This document shows, piece by piece, positions 15,175 to 63,897 of a stretch of DNA of 64,000 nt. Each line of letters begins with the position of its first letter. The stretch's first letter is position 1. Where the stretch lies: positions 1 through 64,000 of IMG/VR virus record IMGVR_UViG_3300029985_000036; one strand, written 5' to 3'. The DNA is from a virus. The position numbers were made by a program, and so were the translations under genes. The notes beneath the pieces are model-generated. The model was not told where the DNA came from and did not search any database. It saw only the letters and a list, made by a program, of their open reading frames with translations.

Positions 15175-15208
15175 AGATGTAGATCTGTCATCTGACAGAT
15201 CTACATCT
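15175..15208 (-). terminator. Hairpin terminator
   Basis: AGATGTAGATCTGTCA and TGACAGATCTACATCT are 16-base inverted arms separated by two bases. On the minus strand ATTAATTTTTAATAATG follows. It lies 25 bases past the stop of the zinc-ribbon gene at 15233. Confidence 0.75.
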
Positions 15209-15232: not shown

Positions 15233-15484
15233 TTAAATAGATTTTTCAGTTTCTGTTATCTTTTCTGCAGGGGGAATTTTGCGGGTATATGGTTTACGTC
15301 CAAGACATCCACAACTAAGTGCATCTCCGGCTGTTAGATATTTACCAAGTTTAACAACACGGCTACCACATTTGCACTTACAATTCCAGGTAGCTCGACT
15401 CCGAGAATCCAGACTGTGAAATGACATCACTGTCAAGTTACCAAAAACTGACCCAACCAGACTAGCACAGCGAGTAGTTTGCAT
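15233..15484 (-). CDS. Small zinc-ribbon protein of phage/homing-endonuclease-associated type
   Basis: 83 residues from the ATG at 15484 (TTGGAG seven bases upstream; the longer TTG start would overlap that site). The body matches a small domain common in phages: a V-G-S-V-F-G-N-L-T-V opening, then W-x-C-x-C-x-C-G, then L-S-C-G-C-L, giving five or six Cys for zinc. The domain is found as stand-alone proteins and next to HNH or AP2 domains, and is presumed to bind DNA. The C-terminal tail (RKIPPAEKITETEKSI) is basic then acidic. Substrate unknown. Confidence 0.65.
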   Translation of the reverse strand: MQTTRCASLVGSVFGNLTVMSFHSLDSRSRATWNCKCKCGSRVVKLGKYLTAGDALSCGCLGRKPYTRKIPPAEKITETEKSI

Positions 15485-15538
15485 GTTTATCTCCAAGTAT
15501 AGATTGTTGTATCTTCGTATGATTCGTGTCTTATTAAC

Positions 15539-16039
15539 CTACATATTCCTAATCCACTGAGTAGAAGGATATACACCATCAAATCCTTCCTCAACAGTAG
15601 GATTTACAAATGTAGTTCGCATGCGATCATCTGCTTCCACTGGAATTATTTTACCAGGACGATTCAAAAGACGCAGTTGTCTTTCTTCTTCATCCACGCG
15701 GCATACCATAGCTATCTTTCGATAGTAATCTGGTACATCAAAAATACTACGAGAACGACTCGCAAGAGTAAGATGTGTGGCATCGTGGATAATATTTTTA
15801 TTACCCAAAAGAGCTTTCTTTCGAGCAGTCTGAACAATACCTTTGGCAGTTTCGATATAAGAAGAAAAGACTTCTGTATAAGTTGTTCCTTCTTGTTTGG
15901 CATATCGTTCAATTTCATCATCTAAACTGAGTACAATGAGTTCATCGGGGTTCAATCGCGCACATACCGTATTACGAAATGTTGTTTTTCCAGATCCTGG
16001 AAGCCCCACCAAGACAATATAAAGGGAAGCCTGATGCAT
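15539..16039 (-). CDS. P-loop kinase, polynucleotide-kinase-like (AAA_33 type)
   Basis: 166 residues. The Walker A GLPGSGKTT sits at residues 12-20; a SLDDEIERYAKQEGTTYTEVF segment provides the catalytic Asp and lid region, and IIHDATHLTLASRSR matches the Asp-x-Thr-x-x-x-x-x-x-x-R pattern of the T4 polynucleotide kinase domain. C-terminal arginines (RLLNRPG, DDRMRTTF) fit a lid. The family transfers ATP gamma-phosphate to 5'-hydroxyl ends or small molecules. There is no phosphatase domain, so it corresponds to the kinase half of T4 Pnk. It lies next to a macro-domain gene, which suggests RNA-end or nucleotide repair, possibly against host tRNA cleavage or ADP-ribosylation. Start ATG with AAGGA upstream. 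Confidence 0.8.
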   Translation of the reverse strand: MHQASLYIVLVGLPGSGKTTFRNTVCARLNPDELIVLSLDDEIERYAKQEGTTYTEVFSSYIETAKGIVQTARKKALLGNKNIIHDATHLTLASRSRSIFDVPDYYRKIAMVCRVDEEERQLRLLNRPGKIIPVEADDRMRTTFVNPTVEEGFDGVYPSTQWIRNM

Positions 16040-16068
16040 CGATGATCTTCCTTTTTGTTATTTGTTTG

Positions 16069-16611
16069 CTAATAATAAAACAGGGGAGCAACTTCATGCC
16101 AGGTACTAGGAACCGGATGTCCCCTCCATGCATTATACATTTGAGTTGCAGCACTAGCTATTGATAGAAGTTCGTCTCCTGTTCCCATACCAGGACAGAC
16201 AAAACGAGACGTCTGTGGACGTAGTCGCAGTGCTGCCGACATGGCCATAAACACATTGAGAGTGCCCCGAATATCACCGTGCATAACCATTGTCGGAGCA
16301 TAAACAAGGACAACGCCTGGGGTAAGATCAACAGCGATTGCTGCTCCAACAGGAAGACCGGCTGGCCAATTCTCTTGAATCTTAGTTTGTACTTTCTCTT
16401 GTATATCAGGCCACCGATTTACAATAGACAGAGCAACTCCACTGTCCATAATACCAAATGAATTACCTGGAACAATTAGAGTATCACCATAACACAGCTG
16501 GTCTTCAATCTTAGAAATAGTATAAAGATAATCAGGACCAAATCTTTTTTTCAATACTCGAATGACATCAGAACTCTGATCAACAAAATGCAAACGCGGA
16601 GCATCGTCCAT
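16069..16611 (-). CDS. Macro-domain protein (ADP-ribose binding or processing)
   Basis: 180 residues from ATG 16611, which has AGGA upstream; two earlier starts are open but poorer. Macro-domain features: VPGNSFGIMDSGVALSI at about 47-63 (adenine/ribose-contacting Asn-rich loop), LPVGAAIAV at 86-94, a central YAPTM strand, and VCPGMGTG at 138-145 (phosphate-binding Gly loop). Such proteins bind or hydrolyse ADP-ribose, ADP-ribose-1''-phosphate or ADP-ribosylated targets. In a phage the likely uses are NAD-metabolite handling, tRNA-splicing by-product clearance with the adjacent kinase, or blocking NAD/ADP-ribose-based defence; the sequence alone does not decide. Confidence 0.8.
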   Translation of the reverse strand: MDDAPRLHFVDQSSDVIRVLKKRFGPDYLYTISKIEDQLCYGDTLIVPGNSFGIMDSGVALSIVNRWPDIQEKVQTKIQENWPAGLPVGAAIAVDLTPGVVLVYAPTMVMHGDIRGTLNVFMAMSAALRLRPQTSRFVCPGMGTGDELLSIASAATQMYNAWRGHPVPSTWHEVAPLFYY

Positions 16612-16634
16612 TGTAAACATCCTAACAAGTGAGA

Positions 16635-17021
16635 TTAGATGGCCAGTTCCATACAAGGAAGATACTTCATTAGATATATAAAGAGGTTTTCAAATCCTTC
16701 AGTCATCAGTGTATTATTGTCAGACACTGATTCGAATATCTGCCATACTGGAATGTCTTTTCTGGATGTAATGAGAATAACATTTCCAACTGTAACATCA
16801 CAGGATGAATTGAGATTACGAACATCAAGAGAAGTTGGAACATCTGCATCCGTCATCGAAACGAAAACATAAACTTGATCAGATAAAAGTGTACGAACTG
16901 CAAGATCCGCATGATGTTTTGTAACTGTAAAGATTTCAGTCCAATGTTTTTTCTCAAGAAGTTGTAATTTTGTGATACCATATCGGTCTGCATACGCAAC
17001 AATAACTGAGGCTTGCGACAT
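16635..17021 (-). CDS. Hypothetical protein
   Basis: 128 residues from ATG 17021 (MSQASVIVAYADRYG), with CAAGGA eight bases upstream; the frame is open to 17078 without a site. It is alpha/beta in character: a beta-strand VYVFVSMTDADVP, a segment GNVILITSRKDIPVWQIF, and a helical C-terminus. No family is recognised. Third gene of the kinase/macro-domain run, with short gaps throughout. Confidence 0.6.
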   Translation of the reverse strand: MSQASVIVAYADRYGITKLQLLEKKHWTEIFTVTKHHADLAVRTLLSDQVYVFVSMTDADVPTSLDVRNLNSSCDVTVGNVILITSRKDIPVWQIFESVSDNNTLMTEGFENLFIYLMKYLPCMELAI

Positions 17022-17037
17022 GGATATATCCTTGGTG

Positions 17038-17238
17038 TTAATGCAGGGTTTCAATATTATTACAAGTCCATTTAACAAGACAGCTATTGTCTCGAATCAT
17101 AAAAGTTCCAGTCATAATACCATCTTCAACCAGGTCATGAATATCATAAACCTGAGCAAGGATTTCATTCGTATCGGATTGAGTCCACACAGTAATTTCA
17201 CCAGTATCAAACGTAAGATCTCGTTTATCAGGAATCAT
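17038..17238 (-). CDS. 66-residue hypothetical protein
   Basis: Starts MIPDKRDLTFDTGEITVWTQ with AAAGGAG seven bases upstream, a clear translation signal. Predominantly beta (TGEITVW, GTFMIRD, CLVKWTC). It ends 16 bases before the next start. No domain is recognised. Confidence 0.65.
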   Translation of the reverse strand: MIPDKRDLTFDTGEITVWTQSDTNEILAQVYDIHDLVEDGIMTGTFMIRDNSCLVKWTCNNIETLH

Positions 17239-17265
17239 AACAAACTCCTTTAATAAATAATGTTT

Positions 17266-17694
17266 TTATTTGCGGATTGCAATACCATTATCATCCAAGA
17301 TCCATAGATCTGGTCGAATCAATACGCGAAGATCATCAATGAGTCCTTCAACCTGATCATCTGATAATGCAGGACCGTTCTGTATATTCACAGCACGTTC
17401 TTCTAATGAAGGAACATCACACTCCACTAGATTATCTGGATCAATACCGAAAACACACCTCTCATGCAACAAGTTATTGTTGAATTCAGCTAATACATTA
17501 ACTCGCATGGTGATGCTGTTATCGTCTTCTTTATCAAACACGGCAAGTGTTACGTTGTGATTAGTGGTTGTCAATCGATATAATTTCCACGGTTGAAATT
17601 TTCTCGCGACTCGTTGTACAATTTTTGGACGTTCTGCAACCCAGGCACCCCATTCGAGCATGTGGGCTTCTGTCGGATTAAACCAGTTTCCCAC
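17266..17694 (-). CDS. Hypothetical protein
   Basis: 142 residues from the GTG at 17694 (M-GNWFNPTEAHMLEWGAW), with AAAGGA nine bases upstream. The frame opens at 17739, but that start falls inside the palindrome at 17721-17748 and is unlikely. The protein looks alpha/beta, with an acidic C-terminal DDQVEGLIDDLRVLIRP. It is the first gene after the topoisomerase A-like gene and is separated from it by the palindrome. Function unknown. Confidence 0.55.
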   Translation of the reverse strand: MGNWFNPTEAHMLEWGAWVAERPKIVQRVARKFQPWKLYRLTTTNHNVTLAVFDKEDDNSITMRVNVLAEFNNNLLHERCVFGIDPDNLVECDVPSLEERAVNIQNGPALSDDQVEGLIDDLRVLIRPDLWILDDNGIAIRK

Positions 17695-17720
17695 GGTAGC
17701 AATTCCTTTATGTTGAAGAA

Positions 17721-17748
17721 ATGTGATAGGTGTTAACACCTATCACAT
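17721..17748 (-). terminator. Perfect palindrome after the topoisomerase A-like gene
   Basis: ATGTGATAGGTGTT / AACACCTATCACAT, 28 bases with no unpaired centre, 10 bases past the stop of the gene at 17758. No strong U-tract follows (TTTCTTC), so it may terminate partially or stabilise the mRNA end. Confidence 0.55.
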
Positions 17749-17757
17749 CCTCAGTTG

Positions 17758-19959
17758 TTACAAGAGTCGAATGTATCGATTTTTCTTTACCTCAGCAGTA
17801 GCAATATCAATCCGAGCATGATCACTGGTACCAAGAAGAGATTCCAGATCAAGAAACTCGGCTACACGAACAGAACTTCTATTTAGATATTCTGGGGGGA
17901 TATTCAAAAAGAAGTGTTTATCGAGACTGTGTACCAACAGAACAGAACCAGTTGGATTGATTGCGATCTTTGCTTTCTCTGGCGAGACGCGCTGGATTGC
18001 AATTACATTTGGAGTATTGCTGTTCAATGCCAATACATAATGCACACATTTTGGCTCGGGATATGTGTAGATTATATCTGTCATGCTACCACGACAGATG
18101 GTCTTTCGTAACGAGATTTCTTTTACCACTTCAATCGTATCGATAGTTCCATTGCGTCGAATTGCTTTGGAGATTGGAGTAGTGTAGAAATACCCTTCTT
18201 TTCGCAATCCTGGAATAAATCCTTTGACACAACAAGCTACCCCGTCAAGGATGTTGACCGTGATTACTTTATCTGATTTAGGAGTAGCATCGAGATCAAT
18301 CTTAATCCCGTAGATGTCCCCAGTGGTAATCTTTGGAATATAACCAGTTTCCAATTTACCAGTCTCACTCACTCTACACTGAAAAGGACCGTCGTAGATA
18401 TAGATTTCCAATGTTTCTTTAGGGAAAGATTCGATGATGGCTGGAATCTCATCAAGGGAATCAAATTGGATACACCCTCCTCCAATCCGAATATATCCGA
18501 TATAGGCAGGAATTTTAGTTCTGCGTGGAGTCGGATATCGCTTCTTAATGACCTGGGCTTCAGTGGCCATTTCATCAGAGATTCTTCCAAAGGAATCTAG
18601 TAATTCTCGAAGTGATTTTTCAAGATCGAATTTACGTTTTTCTTGTTCTGTTCGGGAAGTGGTTGTCAGAATACGCAATCGTGTATTAACGACATAGTTG
18701 GATTGAAACAGAGTCAGGTTATATTGATCTTGTAACAACCGGATACTGTTTTCTTCTGTGTTGACACGGAGCAATGCCACCACAGCATCAAGATTATCGC
18801 AGACAACCATCAGGGCCTCAACCTGACGAAGCTGTGTCGTCAAAGTTCCAATCTTTAATTTCTTTGAAGAAACTAAGATATTGTATCGTGCATCATACCA
18901 AATTCGCAGTAGATTCGGTTGTGATACTTGAATCACATAACCACCATCGTTGTAGTTTGGAATAGGAGATACAGATCCGGAAAATGAAATCTTCTTGGAG
19001 ATCAATTCCCAAGCTTCAAAAACGTTAACACCTCGCTTGAGTTTAATGCAGATGTTTCCAATCAATGGATTGGCAATACCTGCACTATTTTTTCCAGTAA
19101 GATCCTTAACCCACATAATATTTTTATCAAACCAGCTATTCTTTTCCTTCATCAAGTCTTCGATAACAATATCGAGTCCTTTGAAAGGAGTACCATATGG
19201 TAATGTATTGATGTGGATGGCATCCGACAGTAAGACAACTTCACCATCCATCTTTATCTTCTGTGTAAATTTACCTTGTTTGTAAGCAGCAAGAAGTTCC
19301 CGATGATTGGTCAATGTGCAAATGCTCGGAAAATCGGGGAGGAATTTCTCTACATGTTTCACATAGTCAAATGGTTCCAATGGGGAGTGCTTCATATGTT
19401 TACAGAAGTCAACTACAAGATCACACACATCTGCAAGATTGTGAGGAACCGTATAGCTGCTCATACCATAGCCAATTGAACTATTGGCATATAACAAAGC
19501 AGTAGGAATTGCTGGGATCAAATGGATGGGTTCGTATCCATTCAGTCCTTCATTCTGTTCTTTTGGGAGTGCTCGATATTCAATTCCTTCAAAGAACACA
19601 TCCCGTGAGAATTCCGAAAGTCTTTCATTGGTATATTTGCTGGCAGCAGGCCGAGGATCTGCATATGTTCCACATGCACTATCAAAGATCAGTGGAAGTG
19701 GATTATATTCATGACTCTGTCCCAGTCGAGCAGCCGCATGATAGATACTATCTTCACCATGCGGATGATTTTCATTCGTCAGTGCAATTAACTTTGCACT
19801 TTTAATAACACCATTGGTGTCTCGAACCGCATCTACGATTCTACGAAGAACTGGTTTCAATCCATCGACAGCATTTGGATGAGCAGCCTTGATCATCGAC
19901 AAGGCAAATTGTGTTAGATTTTGGTCGATGATTACCGATGCAGAAATTTCATCTGTCAT
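17758..19959 (-). CDS. Type II DNA topoisomerase, subunit A (GyrA/ParC/T4 gp52-like)
   Basis: 733 residues. N-terminal GyrA fold: AVDGLKPVLRRIVDAVRD at 30-47 (cellular DGLKPVHRRILY), NHPHGEDSIYHAAARL at 64-79 (cellular HPHGD-x-A-x-Y), and the active-site tyrosine Y109 in SKYTNERLSEF (cellular RYTE-x-R). Y109 would form the 5'-phosphotyrosyl link during strand passage. The ISNP-like tower and coiled-coil region follow. A C-terminal beta-pinwheel GyrA domain is not obvious; residues after 480 are shorter than in gyrase, so a T4-like relaxing or decatenating enzyme without supercoiling is more likely. It pairs with the B subunit at 20540-23023, with one small gene between. ATG with GAGGAT upstream. 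Confidence 0.92.
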   Translation of the reverse strand: MTDEISASVIIDQNLTQFALSMIKAAHPNAVDGLKPVLRRIVDAVRDTNGVIKSAKLIALTNENHPHGEDSIYHAAARLGQSHEYNPLPLIFDSACGTYADPRPAASKYTNERLSEFSRDVFFEGIEYRALPKEQNEGLNGYEPIHLIPAIPTALLYANSSIGYGMSSYTVPHNLADVCDLVVDFCKHMKHSPLEPFDYVKHVEKFLPDFPSICTLTNHRELLAAYKQGKFTQKIKMDGEVVLLSDAIHINTLPYGTPFKGLDIVIEDLMKEKNSWFDKNIMWVKDLTGKNSAGIANPLIGNICIKLKRGVNVFEAWELISKKISFSGSVSPIPNYNDGGYVIQVSQPNLLRIWYDARYNILVSSKKLKIGTLTTQLRQVEALMVVCDNLDAVVALLRVNTEENSIRLLQDQYNLTLFQSNYVVNTRLRILTTTSRTEQEKRKFDLEKSLRELLDSFGRISDEMATEAQVIKKRYPTPRRTKIPAYIGYIRIGGGCIQFDSLDEIPAIIESFPKETLEIYIYDGPFQCRVSETGKLETGYIPKITTGDIYGIKIDLDATPKSDKVITVNILDGVACCVKGFIPGLRKEGYFYTTPISKAIRRNGTIDTIEVVKEISLRKTICRGSMTDIIYTYPEPKCVHYVLALNSNTPNVIAIQRVSPEKAKIAINPTGSVLLVHSLDKHFFLNIPPEYLNRSSVRVAEFLDLESLLGTSDHARIDIATAEVKKNRYIRLL

Positions 19960-19983
19960 TATCTATATCCTCATTTGCATTGT

Positions 19984-20466
19984 TTAATCTTCCTCATTGT
20001 AGGATGGTGTTCCGATTGGTAGGATCGGCGAGGTTACACGCGCATCTTCTACTTGAAGTACTCCTGGAGTTGGGGTAGATACCATCAATTTTGTAGGATC
20101 AGAACGAGACTTGGGTTTTTGTGTCAATGAAGGACCATCAGCAGCATCCTTACTTCCAACTTCAATTAAATCACCTGTCTTTGTTCGGATGACAAATCGA
20201 ACTTCTACAATATTCAGTCGTAGAATATTAAGTAGTATGAAATAAAAGAGTCTCCAGGTAATTTCATCTTTGAGTAAAGCTTTTCGTAAATTACCACGAT
20301 CAGTGTTGATCCCAGAAGGTGAGCTCCCAATTCGTCGACCATATTCACCACACAGCGCAGAGAACTGATCCATGGTGATTTTGTTACGATAAAAGATCAG
20401 CCGAAGCAGACGCACTAGGGGAGATCCCACTGCGTTTACATCATCTTTGCTAAACATGAGTGCCAT
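19984..20466 (-). CDS. Hypothetical protein between the topoisomerase genes
   Basis: 160 residues from the ATG at 20466 (MALMFSKDDVNAVGS), with AGGAAG nine bases upstream. The N-terminal 110 residues are helical and basic (LVRLLRLIFYRNKITMDQF); the C-terminal 50 are Ser/Pro/Thr-rich and probably disordered (TPTPGVLQVEDARVTSPILP). It is co-transcribed with both topoisomerase genes, which invites the idea of an accessory subunit, but no family is recognised. Confidence 0.6.
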   Translation of the reverse strand: MALMFSKDDVNAVGSPLVRLLRLIFYRNKITMDQFSALCGEYGRRIGSSPSGINTDRGNLRKALLKDEITWRLFYFILLNILRLNIVEVRFVIRTKTGDLIEVGSKDAADGPSLTQKPKSRSDPTKLMVSTPTPGVLQVEDARVTSPILPIGTPSYNEED

Positions 20467-20539
20467 GGAATATCTTCCTGAAGTTGTTATGTTGATGTGG
20501 ATTATTCTCCCAGGATCCACATCAACATTTCAAGTGACG

Positions 20540-23023
20540 TTATGTACGACTGAGGAGTTGTTTTCGTGCTGCCGTATTTTTACCAAGAAGTGCAAAGATC
20601 CGCTGTACATCACCAACCTCAGTGATCTTGTACATATTGCGATATTGAGGATCCATACACACACGGCCCATGTCAGCAGGTTTCATACTACCAAGACCTT
20701 TGTATCGTTCGATAGAAAATTGTTTGTCAAGAGTCGTTAACATGTCATTAAGTTTCATAATCGAAACTTCACGATCTCGGAACTCGGAGCTATTCTTTGT
20801 AGTAATATATATCTGTTTTTTCCGCCATTGAATTCGGTTCATCAGAGGCAACACCGTATCAATCAGTCTTTTCCACACATTCTTAAGTGGAATGATATGG
20901 TCCTCGCTTCCGATTGTCAGAATGAGAATATTGCCATTCTGTTCATATGTAACGCGATCAACATCAGGCACCAGCTGTTTGATACGGGCAACATCAATCT
21001 TTTCTAATGAAGGATCAAGTGCTGCCGTGATATAGGTCAGTCTTTCTACAACTGGCGGATCCACCAATAGTTCTCGAGACAGGTTGTCAATAGCTTCACC
21101 AATTTCCAATACATTCCGTAATGTTCGAATACACTCATCATGTTCTAATAGACGAGTTTTGTCTTTAGAGTGCTTAACTCTTTCACCGAATGTAAATGTT
21201 TTCATATACACATTTTCAATTAACCAATCTCGCAATGCCAGTTCATCACGAAAATAGATATTGGGAAGATTCATCTTTTTGGCTGTATATGCCAAACTGT
21301 AAAGTGGTGGGGTAATGATATTGAGCATACCCGAGGTAATTATTTCCGGACACAATGCATAAAAGTTACCAACTAAAATTGCAGTGATATGTTGGCCATG
21401 AGAATCAGCATCTGTCAACACATTCAGACTTCGAAAATTCAAAGTATTAGGATTAAATTTGTTTGGATTAATGCCCGTAATTGTAATAATATTTTGATAG
21501 ATATCGTTATAACGGATATCAACTGCAGTCTGTCGAATATTGTCAATTGTCGTAATGCCGTTGAATGGTTTTCCTCGCAGTTTATAAAGAGCTTGGAATT
21601 CACTATTGCGACCTTCAATAACACTACTTCCGGCGCTGTCTCCTTCAACTAAGAACAATTCAGCAGTACTACGGTTTGTTGTCCAGCAATCCTTAAACAA
21701 TTCACTGAGACCCTTAACCTCTTCAAATAGACGATTGAAGTTTTTAACTTTGACAACACCAAGTACTTCGTTAGTATATTTGTCTTCGATATCAGCAGCC
21801 AACTGTTGATAAAGCGCTGCAATAAATGCAACACTTTCTGGCATTGCTAATTGTTTCTTGATGGAAGGTTCATATACATTGCGAAATTCTCGAGAAAGAA
21901 ATGCACTCTTTGTTGTACTTGCAAATTCTGCACCTGGATATTTAACATCGACTGCCAAATAGATAGGAACTCGATATTGATCCAGAAAGAATTTTCGAAG
22001 TGGAGCTTCCTTAATATAGACACTAATGGCCTGTTTAAGAGCATCCATAACAGTCAAGAAATGGGTACTTTTCAGGTCATCAATAGCAACATTGTTTACC
22101 ATACCAAATCGTCCTCCCAATTCGGAGAATTTGACATAGTAAAAACGTACTTCATATCGAACCATCACTTCACGAACTTCTGGTTTCGTAATGGTTGTCA
22201 GGAACGAATCATGAATGGTATTCTGCAACATAAATGGACGAGTGATGCCAAGATAACTACGGATCCAGGCATTTCGATCAAATGTTGCTTCATTGAAAAC
22301 AACTGTAGCTTCTTCTACATACTTAGCAACAATAGCTTCGGCTTCTGGAATATTGCTCAACCAAATTTTCTCTGGAAGTCCAAGAGAATGAATACGTAAC
22401 TCAATATTCATCTTTCGAAAGAAACAATACTTTTGAATAAGAATAAGAAGTTGGTCTCGTCCCACTTCATAGAAAGTATCGATCCCACTTGTCATAATGA
22501 TGGGATCTGGTTCAAAGATAACGGTGACACCAGTTTGTACTGGAGGAGTGTTGATCAGTTCAACCACTTCATCTGTTTTACCTTCATTGACATAAATGGC
22601 AGCTGATGCTTCCGCACAGTGGGTAATGGCTTTGAAGTGACGAGATGTACCGGCAGTTGCTTTACCACCCTGACCAAATAATCCACCACTATGTTCATAT
22701 GCATTGGTATTGAATTTACCACTGGTATGCATCTTTGTATACGAGTCTAGTAGCTTACCAATTGGCAGTCCACGACCATTATCCGTTACAACAACTTGAT
22801 AGGTATTTTTCTCAGCATCAAAACACAACATGACAAGAAGTTTACCAACCATCTCAGCCATAAGAGCAATCTCATCAATACCATTCGTGATGATTTCGAT
22901 TGCTTGGTGAACAAGTCCTTCGATGCCAGTGGAGGGAAGTAATGCGGTGGGACGCATTCTCACGTACTCTAGTCTCTCAGGACTCCAAATCGAATTTTCG
23001 TTGTATTGACCATATTCACTCAT
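20540..23023 (-). CDS. Type II DNA topoisomerase, subunit B (GyrB/ParE/T4 gp39-like)
   Basis: 827 residues. GHKL ATPase domain: HQAIEIITNGIDE at 39-51 (catalytic Glu43 and Asn47), VTDNGRGLPIGK at 79-90, and the ATP-lid GGLFGQGGKATAGTSRHF at 113-130. TOPRIM domain: LFLVEGDSAGSSVIEGR at about 455-471 (metal-binding Glu) and VLTDADSHGQHITAIL at about 533-548 (Asp-x-Asp). The C-terminal YKGLGSMKPADMGRV matches the GyrB Toprim/tail YKGLGEM-x-x-x-L motif. A full-length two-subunit arrangement, unlike T4 where the large subunit is split. It drives ATP-dependent strand passage during phage DNA replication. The 5' region (23024-23355) contains a TATATTAT element. ATG with GGAGA upstream. Confidence 0.93.
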   Translation of the reverse strand: MSEYGQYNENSIWSPERLEYVRMRPTALLPSTGIEGLVHQAIEIITNGIDEIALMAEMVGKLLVMLCFDAEKNTYQVVVTDNGRGLPIGKLLDSYTKMHTSGKFNTNAYEHSGGLFGQGGKATAGTSRHFKAITHCAEASAAIYVNEGKTDEVVELINTPPVQTGVTVIFEPDPIIMTSGIDTFYEVGRDQLLILIQKYCFFRKMNIELRIHSLGLPEKIWLSNIPEAEAIVAKYVEEATVVFNEATFDRNAWIRSYLGITRPFMLQNTIHDSFLTTITKPEVREVMVRYEVRFYYVKFSELGGRFGMVNNVAIDDLKSTHFLTVMDALKQAISVYIKEAPLRKFFLDQYRVPIYLAVDVKYPGAEFASTTKSAFLSREFRNVYEPSIKKQLAMPESVAFIAALYQQLAADIEDKYTNEVLGVVKVKNFNRLFEEVKGLSELFKDCWTTNRSTAELFLVEGDSAGSSVIEGRNSEFQALYKLRGKPFNGITTIDNIRQTAVDIRYNDIYQNIITITGINPNKFNPNTLNFRSLNVLTDADSHGQHITAILVGNFYALCPEIITSGMLNIITPPLYSLAYTAKKMNLPNIYFRDELALRDWLIENVYMKTFTFGERVKHSKDKTRLLEHDECIRTLRNVLEIGEAIDNLSRELLVDPPVVERLTYITAALDPSLEKIDVARIKQLVPDVDRVTYEQNGNILILTIGSEDHIIPLKNVWKRLIDTVLPLMNRIQWRKKQIYITTKNSSEFRDREVSIMKLNDMLTTLDKQFSIERYKGLGSMKPADMGRVCMDPQYRNMYKITEVGDVQRIFALLGKNTAARKQLLSRT

Positions 23024-60558: not shown

Positions 60559-61047
60559 GTGCCTGTAACCGTAACAAAAATCTTATCCTCTACAGAGTTT
60601 TTAGCTCTTAATAATGACGCAATGGCAAAAGGATATTATAATACAGATCCTCGAATCTTTACGCCGGGTATGGCCTGGGAAGAAGATTGGATCTATGATC
60701 CTTTTGGTGTTCGTAAGGTAGCTGGTGGACACGTTATGATAAAATCTCCAACTGCCCCCAACAAAGAGTATCTATCCATCCACTATTGGAAGGATTGGGC
60801 TCACATTAGACCACCCATCACAGTCGTGTGTCCTAACGGTGCCCACTGGGGTTGGGATCACAAATCTAGTAATGGTGATGGCTGGATTGTTACCAGTACA
60901 AACTCAGTGTTTTCATGTCACCCTTCCATTGTGGTTCCAGGATATCATGGATGGTTTAAGAATGGAACCTTTTCATCTGACCTAGAAGGTCGGGGTCCTA
61001 CCGGTATTTCTAAACCTCTTCCAGAAGGATTGTTACCATGCAAGTAG
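60559..61047 (+). CDS. Hypothetical protein upstream of RNAP beta-prime
   Basis: 162 residues. GTG start with GGAG eleven bases upstream (M-PVTVTKILSSTEFLALNND). Trp/Gly/His-rich beta protein (AWEEDWIYDPFGVRKVAGGH; YHGWFKNGTFSSDLEGRGPT). Its last 10 bases overlap the beta-prime start. In phiKZ a small gene also sits beside the vRNAP beta-prime gene, so an RNAP-linked virion role is possible. No domain is recognised. Confidence 0.6.
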   Translation: MPVTVTKILSSTEFLALNNDAMAKGYYNTDPRIFTPGMAWEEDWIYDPFGVRKVAGGHVMIKSPTAPNKEYLSIHYWKDWAHIRPPITVVCPNGAHWGWDHKSSNGDGWIVTSTNSVFSCHPSIVVPGYHGWFKNGTFSSDLEGRGPTGISKPLPEGLLPCK

Positions 61048-62558
61048 ACGCTCCATTTAATGTAAAGCTTTTGGATGTTAATGCCTACATTCGATCTTGG
61101 TTTGTACATCCTGTTGTCGATCTTTCTTTTTATGCCCCCTCCTCAGGGAATGCCTTCTCTCAAACAGGATTATTCTCAGAAACCATCTTTGGCACTCTGG
61201 GTTCAACAGAACGCATGGTAACCTTTGGTTATATTGCACTGAATACATCCGTTCTTCAGCCACTGATCTACAAGAATCTCATTAAACTTGCAGCGCTTTA
61301 TGAAGAGATTATAACGGGTAATGCATATGCCCGATTCAATGATGAGACACATGATTTTGTGCGATGTCCAGATCCTGAAAAGTTTAATGATGCAGGTACT
61401 GGATATACCTTCTTTATGAATCGGTTTAATGACATTCAATTTGCACGAAATGATTCAAGAATCAGATCTGATCGAATTGATATCATTGAGAAATTCCGAG
61501 ACATTCTATTTTGTGATAAATTCTTGGTACTCCCTGCAGGTCTTCGTGATCTTGCAGAAGATCAAGGTGCTGTTACAACAGATGATATCAACAAACTTTA
61601 TCAAACATTGTTGTCCTATAGTTTTGCTCTTCCTCCTCATTCCAATAGTACAATCTATGATGGAGTACGAACTTCTATTCAAAAGAAAGTCGTAGAAATA
61701 TATGATTATATTGAAAATATTTTAACAGGTAAAAAGGGCTTTATTCAGGGGGTTTGGGGACACCGACATGTAGCTCTTGGTACCCGGAATGTGATCACTG
61801 CAGCTTCATATGCGACCATGACGCCCAATGACCCACAGACCCTTCAACCAGATGAAACCAAGCTCGGATTGTTTCAGACAGCAAAGGCTTTACAACCCAT
61901 TGTTGTTCATCATATCAGAACCAGTTTCTTAGCACCAGTATTTGGAGAAGGCTCCAATCTGGTTCCTCTTACAGATCCAAAAACATATGAACTTGCCTAT
62001 CGATCTCTCAGTAATAAAGAACTATCAAGATTTGATAATCCAGAGGCCATTGAAGATTGGATCTCTCGATTTCAAAATGTTGATATCAGAAATCAACCCG
62101 TCACCATTTATGATGTCGAAGGTAAACCTTTTTATCTTTTAATGGTTTATGATGAGGGTGACGAGATCGCTCTCTTTCGAAGTCTGAATGAATTTCAGAA
62201 TGTATTTCTTCGTGAAATTGATCATTCTAAAATTCGTCCCTTAACTTGGGCTGAGTTGATCTACATGGCTGCTTATAATGCATCTAATGGAAAACATGTA
62301 TTCATCACACGGTATCCCGTTATTCAAGATGAATCTTGTTATCCGACGAAGATTCATCTGAGTTCTACTCAACCGGCTCGTGTTGTCAGGTTGATGAACA
62401 CAGTTATTGATCAGGTTGTTTATACCTATCCTGAATATCCAATTCTGGGAAGACCCTTCCTCGATAGTATCCAATTGGCGACATCTCGGCTAAGTGGTCT
62501 GGATGCAGACTACGATGGAGATTCAACTACTTATTGTTTTCTGACAGAAAACCCATAG
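61038..62558 (+). CDS. RNA polymerase beta-prime subunit, N-terminal part, truncated at the active site
   Basis: 506 residues. GLFSETIFGTLGSTERMVTF at about 44-63 is the conserved N-terminal beta-prime element (GLFDERIFG), GYIALNTSVLQP follows, KKGFIQGVWGHRHVALGTRN matches the lid/switch region (K-x-G-R-x-R-x-x-L-x-G-K-R-V-x-x-S-G-R), and FITRYPVIQ resembles the pre-active-site R-x-P. The catalytic motif DADYDGD at 489-495 supplies all three Mg-binding aspartates. The frame ends 11 residues later (CFLTENP, TAG), where normal beta-prime continues for hundreds of residues. An HNH endonuclease gene follows. Either the gene is split here or an intron interrupts it. ATG with AAGGA, overlapping the previous stop. 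Confidence 0.85.
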   Translation: MQVDAPFNVKLLDVNAYIRSWFVHPVVDLSFYAPSSGNAFSQTGLFSETIFGTLGSTERMVTFGYIALNTSVLQPLIYKNLIKLAALYEEIITGNAYARFNDETHDFVRCPDPEKFNDAGTGYTFFMNRFNDIQFARNDSRIRSDRIDIIEKFRDILFCDKFLVLPAGLRDLAEDQGAVTTDDINKLYQTLLSYSFALPPHSNSTIYDGVRTSIQKKVVEIYDYIENILTGKKGFIQGVWGHRHVALGTRNVITAASYATMTPNDPQTLQPDETKLGLFQTAKALQPIVVHHIRTSFLAPVFGEGSNLVPLTDPKTYELAYRSLSNKELSRFDNPEAIEDWISRFQNVDIRNQPVTIYDVEGKPFYLLMVYDEGDEIALFRSLNEFQNVFLREIDHSKIRPLTWAELIYMAAYNASNGKHVFITRYPVIQDESCYPTKIHLSSTQPARVVRLMNTVIDQVVYTYPEYPILGRPFLDSIQLATSRLSGLDADYDGDSTTYCFLTENP

Positions 62559-62599
62559 CAATTCCTACATAGTCACTTGCTTATGGACTTTTTAATTCT

Positions 62600-62615
62600 G
62601 ACACTATATTATAGA
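62600..62615 (+). promoter_or_regulatory. TATATTATAG element upstream of the homing endonuclease
   Basis: Plus-strand ACACTATATTATAGAA, 20 to 35 bases before the endonuclease ATG. It resembles the TATATTAT/AC elements of the window and could make the endonuclease an independent transcript. Confidence 0.35.
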
Positions 62616-62634
62616 ATTTAAAAGAGTAACTATA

Positions 62635-63897
62635 ATGTCAGAAGAAGAGTTTGTAAAAATTCCTCATTTTTCTAGATACTCCATTTCAAAAAATGGAACT
62701 GTCATAGAAGATGTAAAACACCAAATTGTTGTACCGACATACAACAGATATGGACTTCCAATCGTTGCCCTAAAAAATGAACGCAATAATTTGTGCAATA
62801 TGTCTATTGCCAAACTTGTATTACTTACTTACAACCCACTTGTAAATAATAATTATCCTTATGTAACTATTTCATATGTAGATAAAAATATAAAAAATAT
62901 TGTCTTAGACAATCTTGAATGGAATTTTGTCATATATAAACCTCAATTTATTCCAGGTATTAATATACGAAATGATGAATTTGTAACTGTTTATGGAACA
63001 ACAGATTACATGATTAATGCATTTGGTATTCTACTTAATAAAAAAGGTAAACAACTAACGGGACACACTGATAGCAGTGGGTATATTAAAACAGAAATTG
63101 ATGGTGCCGGAACTACAAGTATCCATCGATTAGTTGCGCTTACATTTTTAGAACATCCGATTGATACAACTGATCTGATTATAAATCACAAAGATGGAAA
63201 CACCAGTAATAACTATTATAAAAATCTTGAATGGTGTAGTTATACCAATAACATTGATCATGCGTATGATAACAAAATGAGAAGTCAAAATATTCCGATT
63301 TTAGCTATGGATATTGAAACTCGTGAGATTGTGAGTCATTATAGTTTACGTGATTTTTGTTATAATGTTGAGATTCCCCACATTGCGATTTGGTGGAGGT
63401 TGCGAAATAATAGAAATATAACTCCGTATCATGGATTTTATATCAAATATACTACAGATTTAAGGCCGTGGCCTAAAAAAGATGGTGTTGTCAATGTGTA
63501 TGAAAAGAAAAAAATATTAATTAAAAATATGTCAAGTGGAGATGTAACTATTTTCACAAGCTATAATGAAATAACACGACAATATAAATTTCAAAAGAAT
63601 TCTATTTTATATCAACTGAATAAACCAGAGCCGGAACCATATCACGGACTTCTTATTAAATTTGAAAATGATAAACCTTGGCCACTATACAGCGAACAAG
63701 ATCTTCATAAATATTCACTTAAAAAAATGCCACAGAGTAAGCCCATTTCAGTCTATAATACACAAACTCAAGAAACAAAAACCTATGAGGGAATTCGAGA
63801 GTTTTGTCGAGACATTAACTATAAAGCTGAGATGTTTATACGAGAAAAAGTCAAATCAAACAAACCCTTTAAACACTATGAAATAAATTATCTGTAA
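62635..63897 (+). CDS. HNH homing endonuclease with NUMOD4/NUMOD1 DNA-binding modules
   Basis: 420 residues, ATG with AAGAG upstream. N-terminal NUMOD4-like FVKIPHFSRYSISKNGTVIE; the HNH_3 core at about 162-210 with SIHRLVALTFLEHP, INHKDGNTSNN and NLEWCSYTNN (metal-binding His/Asn pattern); and NUMOD1-type helix-turn-helix repeats (about 220-245, AMDIETREIVSHYSLRDFC, and about 375-400, VYNTQTQETKTYEGIREFC). Residues 1-100 also look like a degenerate copy of the same NUMOD4-HNH unit (SIAKLVLLTYNPLV; LDNLEWNF). It is more AT-rich than its neighbours, as homing genes often are. It would cut at or near the beta-prime site and promote its own transfer between phages. Confidence 0.9.
   Translation: MSEEEFVKIPHFSRYSISKNGTVIEDVKHQIVVPTYNRYGLPIVALKNERNNLCNMSIAKLVLLTYNPLVNNNYPYVTISYVDKNIKNIVLDNLEWNFVIYKPQFIPGINIRNDEFVTVYGTTDYMINAFGILLNKKGKQLTGHTDSSGYIKTEIDGAGTTSIHRLVALTFLEHPIDTTDLIINHKDGNTSNNYYKNLEWCSYTNNIDHAYDNKMRSQNIPILAMDIETREIVSHYSLRDFCYNVEIPHIAIWWRLRNNRNITPYHGFYIKYTTDLRPWPKKDGVVNVYEKKKILIKNMSSGDVTIFTSYNEITRQYKFQKNSILYQLNKPEPEPYHGLLIKFENDKPWPLYSEQDLHKYSLKKMPQSKPISVYNTQTQETKTYEGIREFCRDINYKAEMFIREKVKSNKPFKHYEINYL

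Follow-up and report, generated by a model that had tools for sequence, protein, structure and literature searches.

The window analysed here is a 64,000-nucleotide stretch of DNA (positions 1 to 64,000 of IMG/VR record IMGVR_UViG_3300029985_000036) and is part of an 86.6 kb virus contig, which evidently covers only some of a larger phage genome. This contig bears RNA-polymerase-like open reading frames (ORFs) and type II topoisomerase genes, and its source is an uncultured and probably very large phage. We focus on a run of seven minus-strand ORFs (15233-19959), in which the genes for a macrodomain protein and a polynucleotide-kinase-type P-loop kinase are adjacent. In order of transcription, the run and the hairpin behind it consist of:

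17758-19959, minus strand: topoisomerase II A-like gene (phrog_551, E 5e-53)
17266-17739, minus strand: 157-amino-acid protein with a distant homologue in Erwinia phage PhiEaH1 (tblastn, E 1e-7)
17038-17238, minus strand: 66-amino-acid protein with a good ribosome-binding site, AAAGGAG (ORF and codon usage)
16635-17021, minus strand: 128-amino-acid protein, listed as 147 amino acids from TTG 17078, with ATG 17021 the more likely start (coding-like codon usage)
16069-16611, minus strand: Macro2-type macrodomain, 180 amino acids from its ATG (phrog_2613, profile and fold match to structure 1njr, conservation counts)
15539-16039, minus strand: stand-alone polynucleotide-kinase-type P-loop kinase, 166 amino acids, without a phosphatase domain (AAA_33, profile and model)
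15233-15484, minus strand: small zinc-binding-type protein, 83-87 amino acids, starting at ATG 15484 or TTG 15496 (phrog_374)
15175-15208, minus strand: terminator-like hairpin with a 15-pair stem, 3' of the zinc protein gene, closing the run (sequence)

The genes of the run are separated by only about 15-55 bases, and this spacing, together with the terminator-like hairpin, suggests that they share one transcript. Every ORF of the run shows coding-like codon usage in its own frame, and both alternative frames on that strand score negative. The run recurs in another viral contig, which is 99.975% identical across 8 kb and encodes the very same macro protein, making a mistake in assembly unlikely; when viral contigs were scanned with single proteins, only one near-identical contig was matched, and among phage records no relative of the cluster was detected at the DNA level. 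An earlier note, made from the sequence alone, had described the kinase and macro genes as neighbours in one run with a zinc-ribbon gene and three small genes, and had proposed that the cluster handles RNA ends and ADP-ribose products together as a countermeasure to host responses. The run itself is confirmed, with all named genes present on the minus strand; what needs correcting is the listed starts of the 147-amino-acid and macro genes, which are probably too far upstream, the true start of the latter probably being the ATG at 16611.

The macro protein matched phrog_2613 with an E-value of 4e-23, and homologues were found in 32 phage records, while a direct Pfam search with the window protein gave no match. 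In an alignment of 29 members (28 relatives from distinct viral contigs plus the window protein), PF14519 (Macro_2) was matched by 27 and the general Macro domain PF01661 by 26; phrog_2613 and phrog_14717 were each matched by all 29, the window protein included. These two PHROGs are labelled 'unknown function' and 'tail protein' respectively. Macro genes of the same family stand among tail-fibre genes in Gifsy-1, Chuche and Mae-JY35 (L007, L011 and L013), which may explain the second label.

Against solved structures, the best match of the family profile was yeast YMX7/YMR087W (1njr, titled ADP-ribose-1''-monophosphatase) at E 2.5e-19, the next best being 5e-14. The AlphaFold model of the window protein, with a predicted local distance difference test score (pLDDT) of 91.4, likewise had 1njr as its first-ranked Foldseek hit, and VIA aligned the two over 173 residues with Z 17.0 and a root-mean-square deviation of 3.6 (next best Z 13.9). 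The MacroD, TARG1 and DarG types were also matched in fold, but at Z of about 12.5-13.7 they fall below YMX7. On profile and predicted fold, then, the window protein is a true macrodomain of the Macro2 type, nearest to YMX7 rather than to MacroD or TARG1, two of the three types with which the earlier note had proposed to compare it; the third, Poa1p, is absent from our match lists, an absence that does not exclude that type. Poa1p has been assigned to another clade, ALC1, and Macro2-type proteins are described as acting, within the tRNA-splicing pathway, on ADP-ribose-1''-phosphate and as leaving protein-bound ADP-ribose in place, YMR087W being the sole Macro2-type protein studied (PMC6397177).

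The window protein is the most divergent of the 29 members, deviating at 9 of the 31 columns that are conserved in at least 85% of its relatives. At position 60 it has Ala where 28 of 28 relatives have Asp, and at position 147, in the second ligand loop, it has Glu where again all 28 have Gly; the relatives had been gathered by patterns that include neither column. Further departures from conserved residues are G57 to S, R109 to V and P111 to H, and all five altered residues (S57, A60, V109, H111 and E147) are located within the ligand loops or close to them. In YMX7 the counterparts of position 60 and Asn50 are Asp90 and Asn80; N80, D90 and H145 form the proposed active site of that protein. 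N50 is kept, but A60 and Y104 replace the Asp and His of this Asn-Asp-His set, which the window protein thus does not possess in full; the phage family does not conserve the His either. With an invariant Asp and an invariant Gly replaced by Ala and Glu, the macro protein may have changed or lost its activity. A missing Asp does not necessarily do away with activity, because the OiMacroD D40A mutant retains about 14% catalytic efficiency, and Af1521 and TTHA0132 are naturally without this residue (PMC5413906).

The neighbouring kinase matched AAA_33 in Pfam (E 1.5e-13), and several of its phage homologues are annotated as polynucleotide kinase. Profile matches include Pnkp1, PSTK, T4 Pnk and C. 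thermocellum Pnkp, and the model (pLDDT 95.7) aligned with the same four by VIA at Z 14.5-16; by both routes the Pnk enzymes and the tRNA kinase PSTK are the best matches. In our alignment the window kinase retains its P-loop and all other residues shared by every sampled member of the family. Small-metabolite kinases (shikimate kinase, PFKFB, gluconokinase) matched in fold and mostly ranked below Pnk and PSTK, and a zeta-toxin kinase scored lower, at Z 13.4. No 3'-phosphatase is fused or adjacent: the 166 residues hold the kinase only, and its neighbours were not recognised as HAD or metallophosphoesterase proteins. Sequence and model together indicate a kinase of the RNA-repair type without a phosphatase domain, for which we infer an RNA substrate.

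The genomic company of the kinase family points the same way. Across 90 phage loci, a sample biased in that most were gathered with a WDQT-like motif, an Rnl1-type (T4 Rnl1) RNA ligase lies within 3 kb of the kinase in 50, a HAD phosphatase is present in 32 and a metallophosphoesterase in 17. Such a ligase directly precedes the kinase homologue in DSS3_MAL1, RcXuper, Cr30 and L105, in the last of which a HAD phosphatase follows the pair; the roseophage DSS3_MAL1 kinase is 43% identical to that of the window. Maximum-likelihood analysis placed the window kinase, on a long branch, in a group with those of L094, L096 and L185 (support 99/97), all three of which adjoin a ligase, so that the window kinase is the only one of its clade that does not. 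In L094 and L096, which are roseophage-type, the ligase-kinase pair is located just upstream of genes for nicotinamide adenine dinucleotide (NAD) salvage, namely a nicotinamide mononucleotide adenylyltransferase/nudix gene and a nicotinate or nicotinamide phosphoribosyltransferase gene.

Relatives of the macro gene are likewise often found near RNA-repair genes. The distance from the macro gene to KptA (PF01885) is about 2 kb in jumbo phages of Klebsiella, 0.75 kb in L057 and L058, and about 17 kb and 101 kb in two other phages. In LPKP23 (L008, 457-3501) and KpYy_2_45 (L005, 460-3501), KptA is on the same strand as a Macro2-type macro gene and about 2 kb upstream of it. An Rnl1 gene is 0.6 kb away in L055, 4 kb in L029 and further in three others, and in phage FLC9 a distance of 2 kb separates RtcB from the macro gene. 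If positions are taken to be random, these distances together give p ~2e-5, a value calculated post hoc from hand-derived distances, for genes of an accessory kind that cluster anyway. RNA repair is not the sole setting of the family, which also occurs among tail-fibre genes, beside SLOG (phage DT01) and near NADAR-like genes. One virus has NADAR-like, macro and KptA genes inside 3 kb (L057, 3880-6742), and an analogous run in L137 (5989-7755) consists of consecutive polynucleotide kinase, metallophosphoesterase and DarG-like macro genes.

Because the kinase family is linked to ligases, the macro protein is of YMX7 type and its relatives are often near KptA, Rnl1 or RtcB, the best reading of the macro-kinase pair is as part of a phage toolkit for mending RNA ends, to which we would give about an even chance. 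Under such a scheme, the kinase would phosphorylate the 5'-OH termini left where a host nuclease has cut RNA, and an RNA ligase, from the rest of the genome or from the host, would seal them. The macro protein would bind or process the NAD-derived product of 2'-phosphate removal from the repaired RNA, a candidate ligand being ADP-ribose-1''-phosphate or its cyclic form; with the invariant Asp and the second-loop Gly lost, the window protein may bind that ligand with weakened or changed catalysis.

Several observations weigh against RNA-end repair. The Pfam families Rnl1 (PF09511) and RNA_ligase (PF09414), as well as RtcB, KptA, 2H and NADAR, gave no hits in the 86.6 kb fragment, and tblastn of phage ligases and KptA against it found nothing; as the contig is incomplete, these negatives do not establish that the genome is without such genes. 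For KptA (PF01885) and 2H (PF13563) the positive controls matched; the PF09511 search of the fragment gave a match in no control genome, although the same model did match other phage records. This kinase and a Macro2-type macro protein were seen paired only in this virus, represented by its two near-identical contigs. YMX7-like catalysis is doubtful because D60 and G147 are gone and Y104 stands at the position of His145. Macro2 activity is known from one studied protein, and a match of predicted fold is no proof of substrate.

Alternatively, the macro protein may serve counter-defence by binding or hydrolysing soluble NAD-derived immune signals or toxins of the host, for example isomers of cyclic ADP-ribose or ADP-ribose-1''-phosphate used as a toxin, with the kinase a functionally unrelated member of a pool of accessory genes. 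We regard this as unlikely, though a serious candidate. Phage Macro, NADAR and SLOG domains have been argued to serve mainly to counter low-molecular-weight ADP-ribose signals (Iyer et al., PMC9503650), the occurrence of the family by SLOG, tail-fibre and NADAR genes is in keeping with such a role, and retention of N50 with loss of D60 fits a binder. Yet the closest fold and profile are those of the RNA-repair-linked YMX7 type, and several relatives are near KptA, Rnl1 and RtcB genes. A combined version, in which the macro protein, having dropped the family's invariant Asp and the Gly of the second loop, acts as a sponge for an ADP-ribose derivative and is co-transcribed with the kinase, so that repair and signal quenching come as one package, seems to us improbable. 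The altered ligand loops, the nine changed columns and the missing direct Pfam match could also mean that the gene is in decay or has been put to another use, with no ADP-ribose activity left; this is quite unlikely given its open frame, coding-like codon usage, high-confidence fold, retained Asn50 and largely intact core, and the proteins noted above that act without the Asp, or with it changed to Ala, tell against it too.

Very unlikely, in our view, is a role in reversing the ADP-ribosylation of proteins or nucleic acids by a host toxin, DarT-like or other. Macrodomains do so in DarTG, and some act on RNA phosphate ends (PMC11833690); DarG, at Z 13.7, is also among the better structural matches. 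However, the Macro2 type reportedly does not take ADP-ribose off proteins (PMC6397177), Ala occupies the place of the catalytic Asp, and no ADP-ribosyltransferase gene was found beside the macro gene, no such family or DarT being detected among the neighbours in the run with Pfam, PHROGs or PADLOC. Of the earlier proposal, the joint handling of RNA ends and ADP-ribose products thus survives in part, in that the kinase is of RNA-repair type, the macrodomain is real and both families occur near RNA-repair genes. Its specific link to host ADP-ribosylation defence is not supported, the macro protein being of the Macro2 type. The note had also held that a filled ADP-ribose pocket would speak against it, and this applies in part, in that key ligand-loop residues differ from those of all sampled relatives.

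The phrog_2613/phrog_14717 family can be assigned by fold to an ADP-ribose-1''-phosphatase-type macrodomain, and the occurrence of KptA, RNA ligase and RtcB genes close by supplies a concrete substrate candidate in place of a generic 'ADP-ribose' role. The window protein, with its invariant Asp changed to Ala, provides a naturally occurring comparison on the question of whether macrodomains of phages are enzymes or binders.

The zinc protein matched phrog_374 (HNH endonuclease) at E 1.5e-13 and is 44% identical to one repeat of the three that precede the HNH-like domain of L066; as its sequence reads, it is a single CxCG...SCGC repeat of HNH homing endonucleases and not an independent zinc-ribbon family, so that a role for it as a functional partner is not supported. 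No convincing homologue of the 128/147-amino-acid protein was found in phages (best E 0.8), Pfam, PHROGs, NCBIfam or PADLOC, and none of the 66-amino-acid protein in profile libraries, the only resources searched with it. The PhiEaH1 homologue of the 157-amino-acid protein is gp037, upstream of PhuZ. These three small genes had been put forward as prime anti-defence candidates; nothing beyond their position marks them as such, one of them has a homologue as just described, and none has a PADLOC match. Directly upstream of them are the topoisomerase II genes (17758-23023), and downstream of the run is a 205-amino-acid gene with a weak partial match (E 0.04). The window contains no tRNA genes and no Rfam families. 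Elsewhere on the plus strand (61038-63897), an RNA polymerase beta'-like ORF stops just past a DADYDGD motif that resembles the catalytic NADFDGD, and an HNH-type ORF (62635-63897) lies directly 3' of it, an arrangement that may reflect an intron- or intein-like insertion or a natural subunit split as in phiKZ-like phages.

Compared with known systems, the macro protein (180 amino acids, against 284 in YMX7/YMR087W) shares with the yeast protein the NS(F/Y)G...G(x)D loop layout and keeps the equivalent of Asn80. Unlike YMX7, it has Ala60 at Asp90, Tyr104 at His145 and Glu147 at the second-loop Gly, and unlike its 28 sampled relatives in phrog_2613 it is without D60 and G147. The kinase is about 30-43% identical to the Rnl1-associated phage kinases of DSS3_MAL1, RcXuper and Cr30, in which the P-loop and invariant residues are likewise intact, and those of MAL1 and RcXuper fall in its own clade; in contrast to all three, it has no adjacent ligase or phosphatase gene, and no ligase was found in the 86.6 kb. 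With the tRNA repair system of T4 Pnk and Rnl1 it has the kinase fold in common (Z 15.7 to 2ia5), but there is no 3'-phosphatase domain, no ligase is seen, and a macro gene adjoins it instead. That jumbo phages link macro domains with KptA and RNA ligases has already been proposed (PMC7824862, PMC9503650), and a macro domain is reported in 56% of jumbo phages (PMC9503650). The general idea is thus already published, and the locus described here is a divergent variant of a known phage theme.

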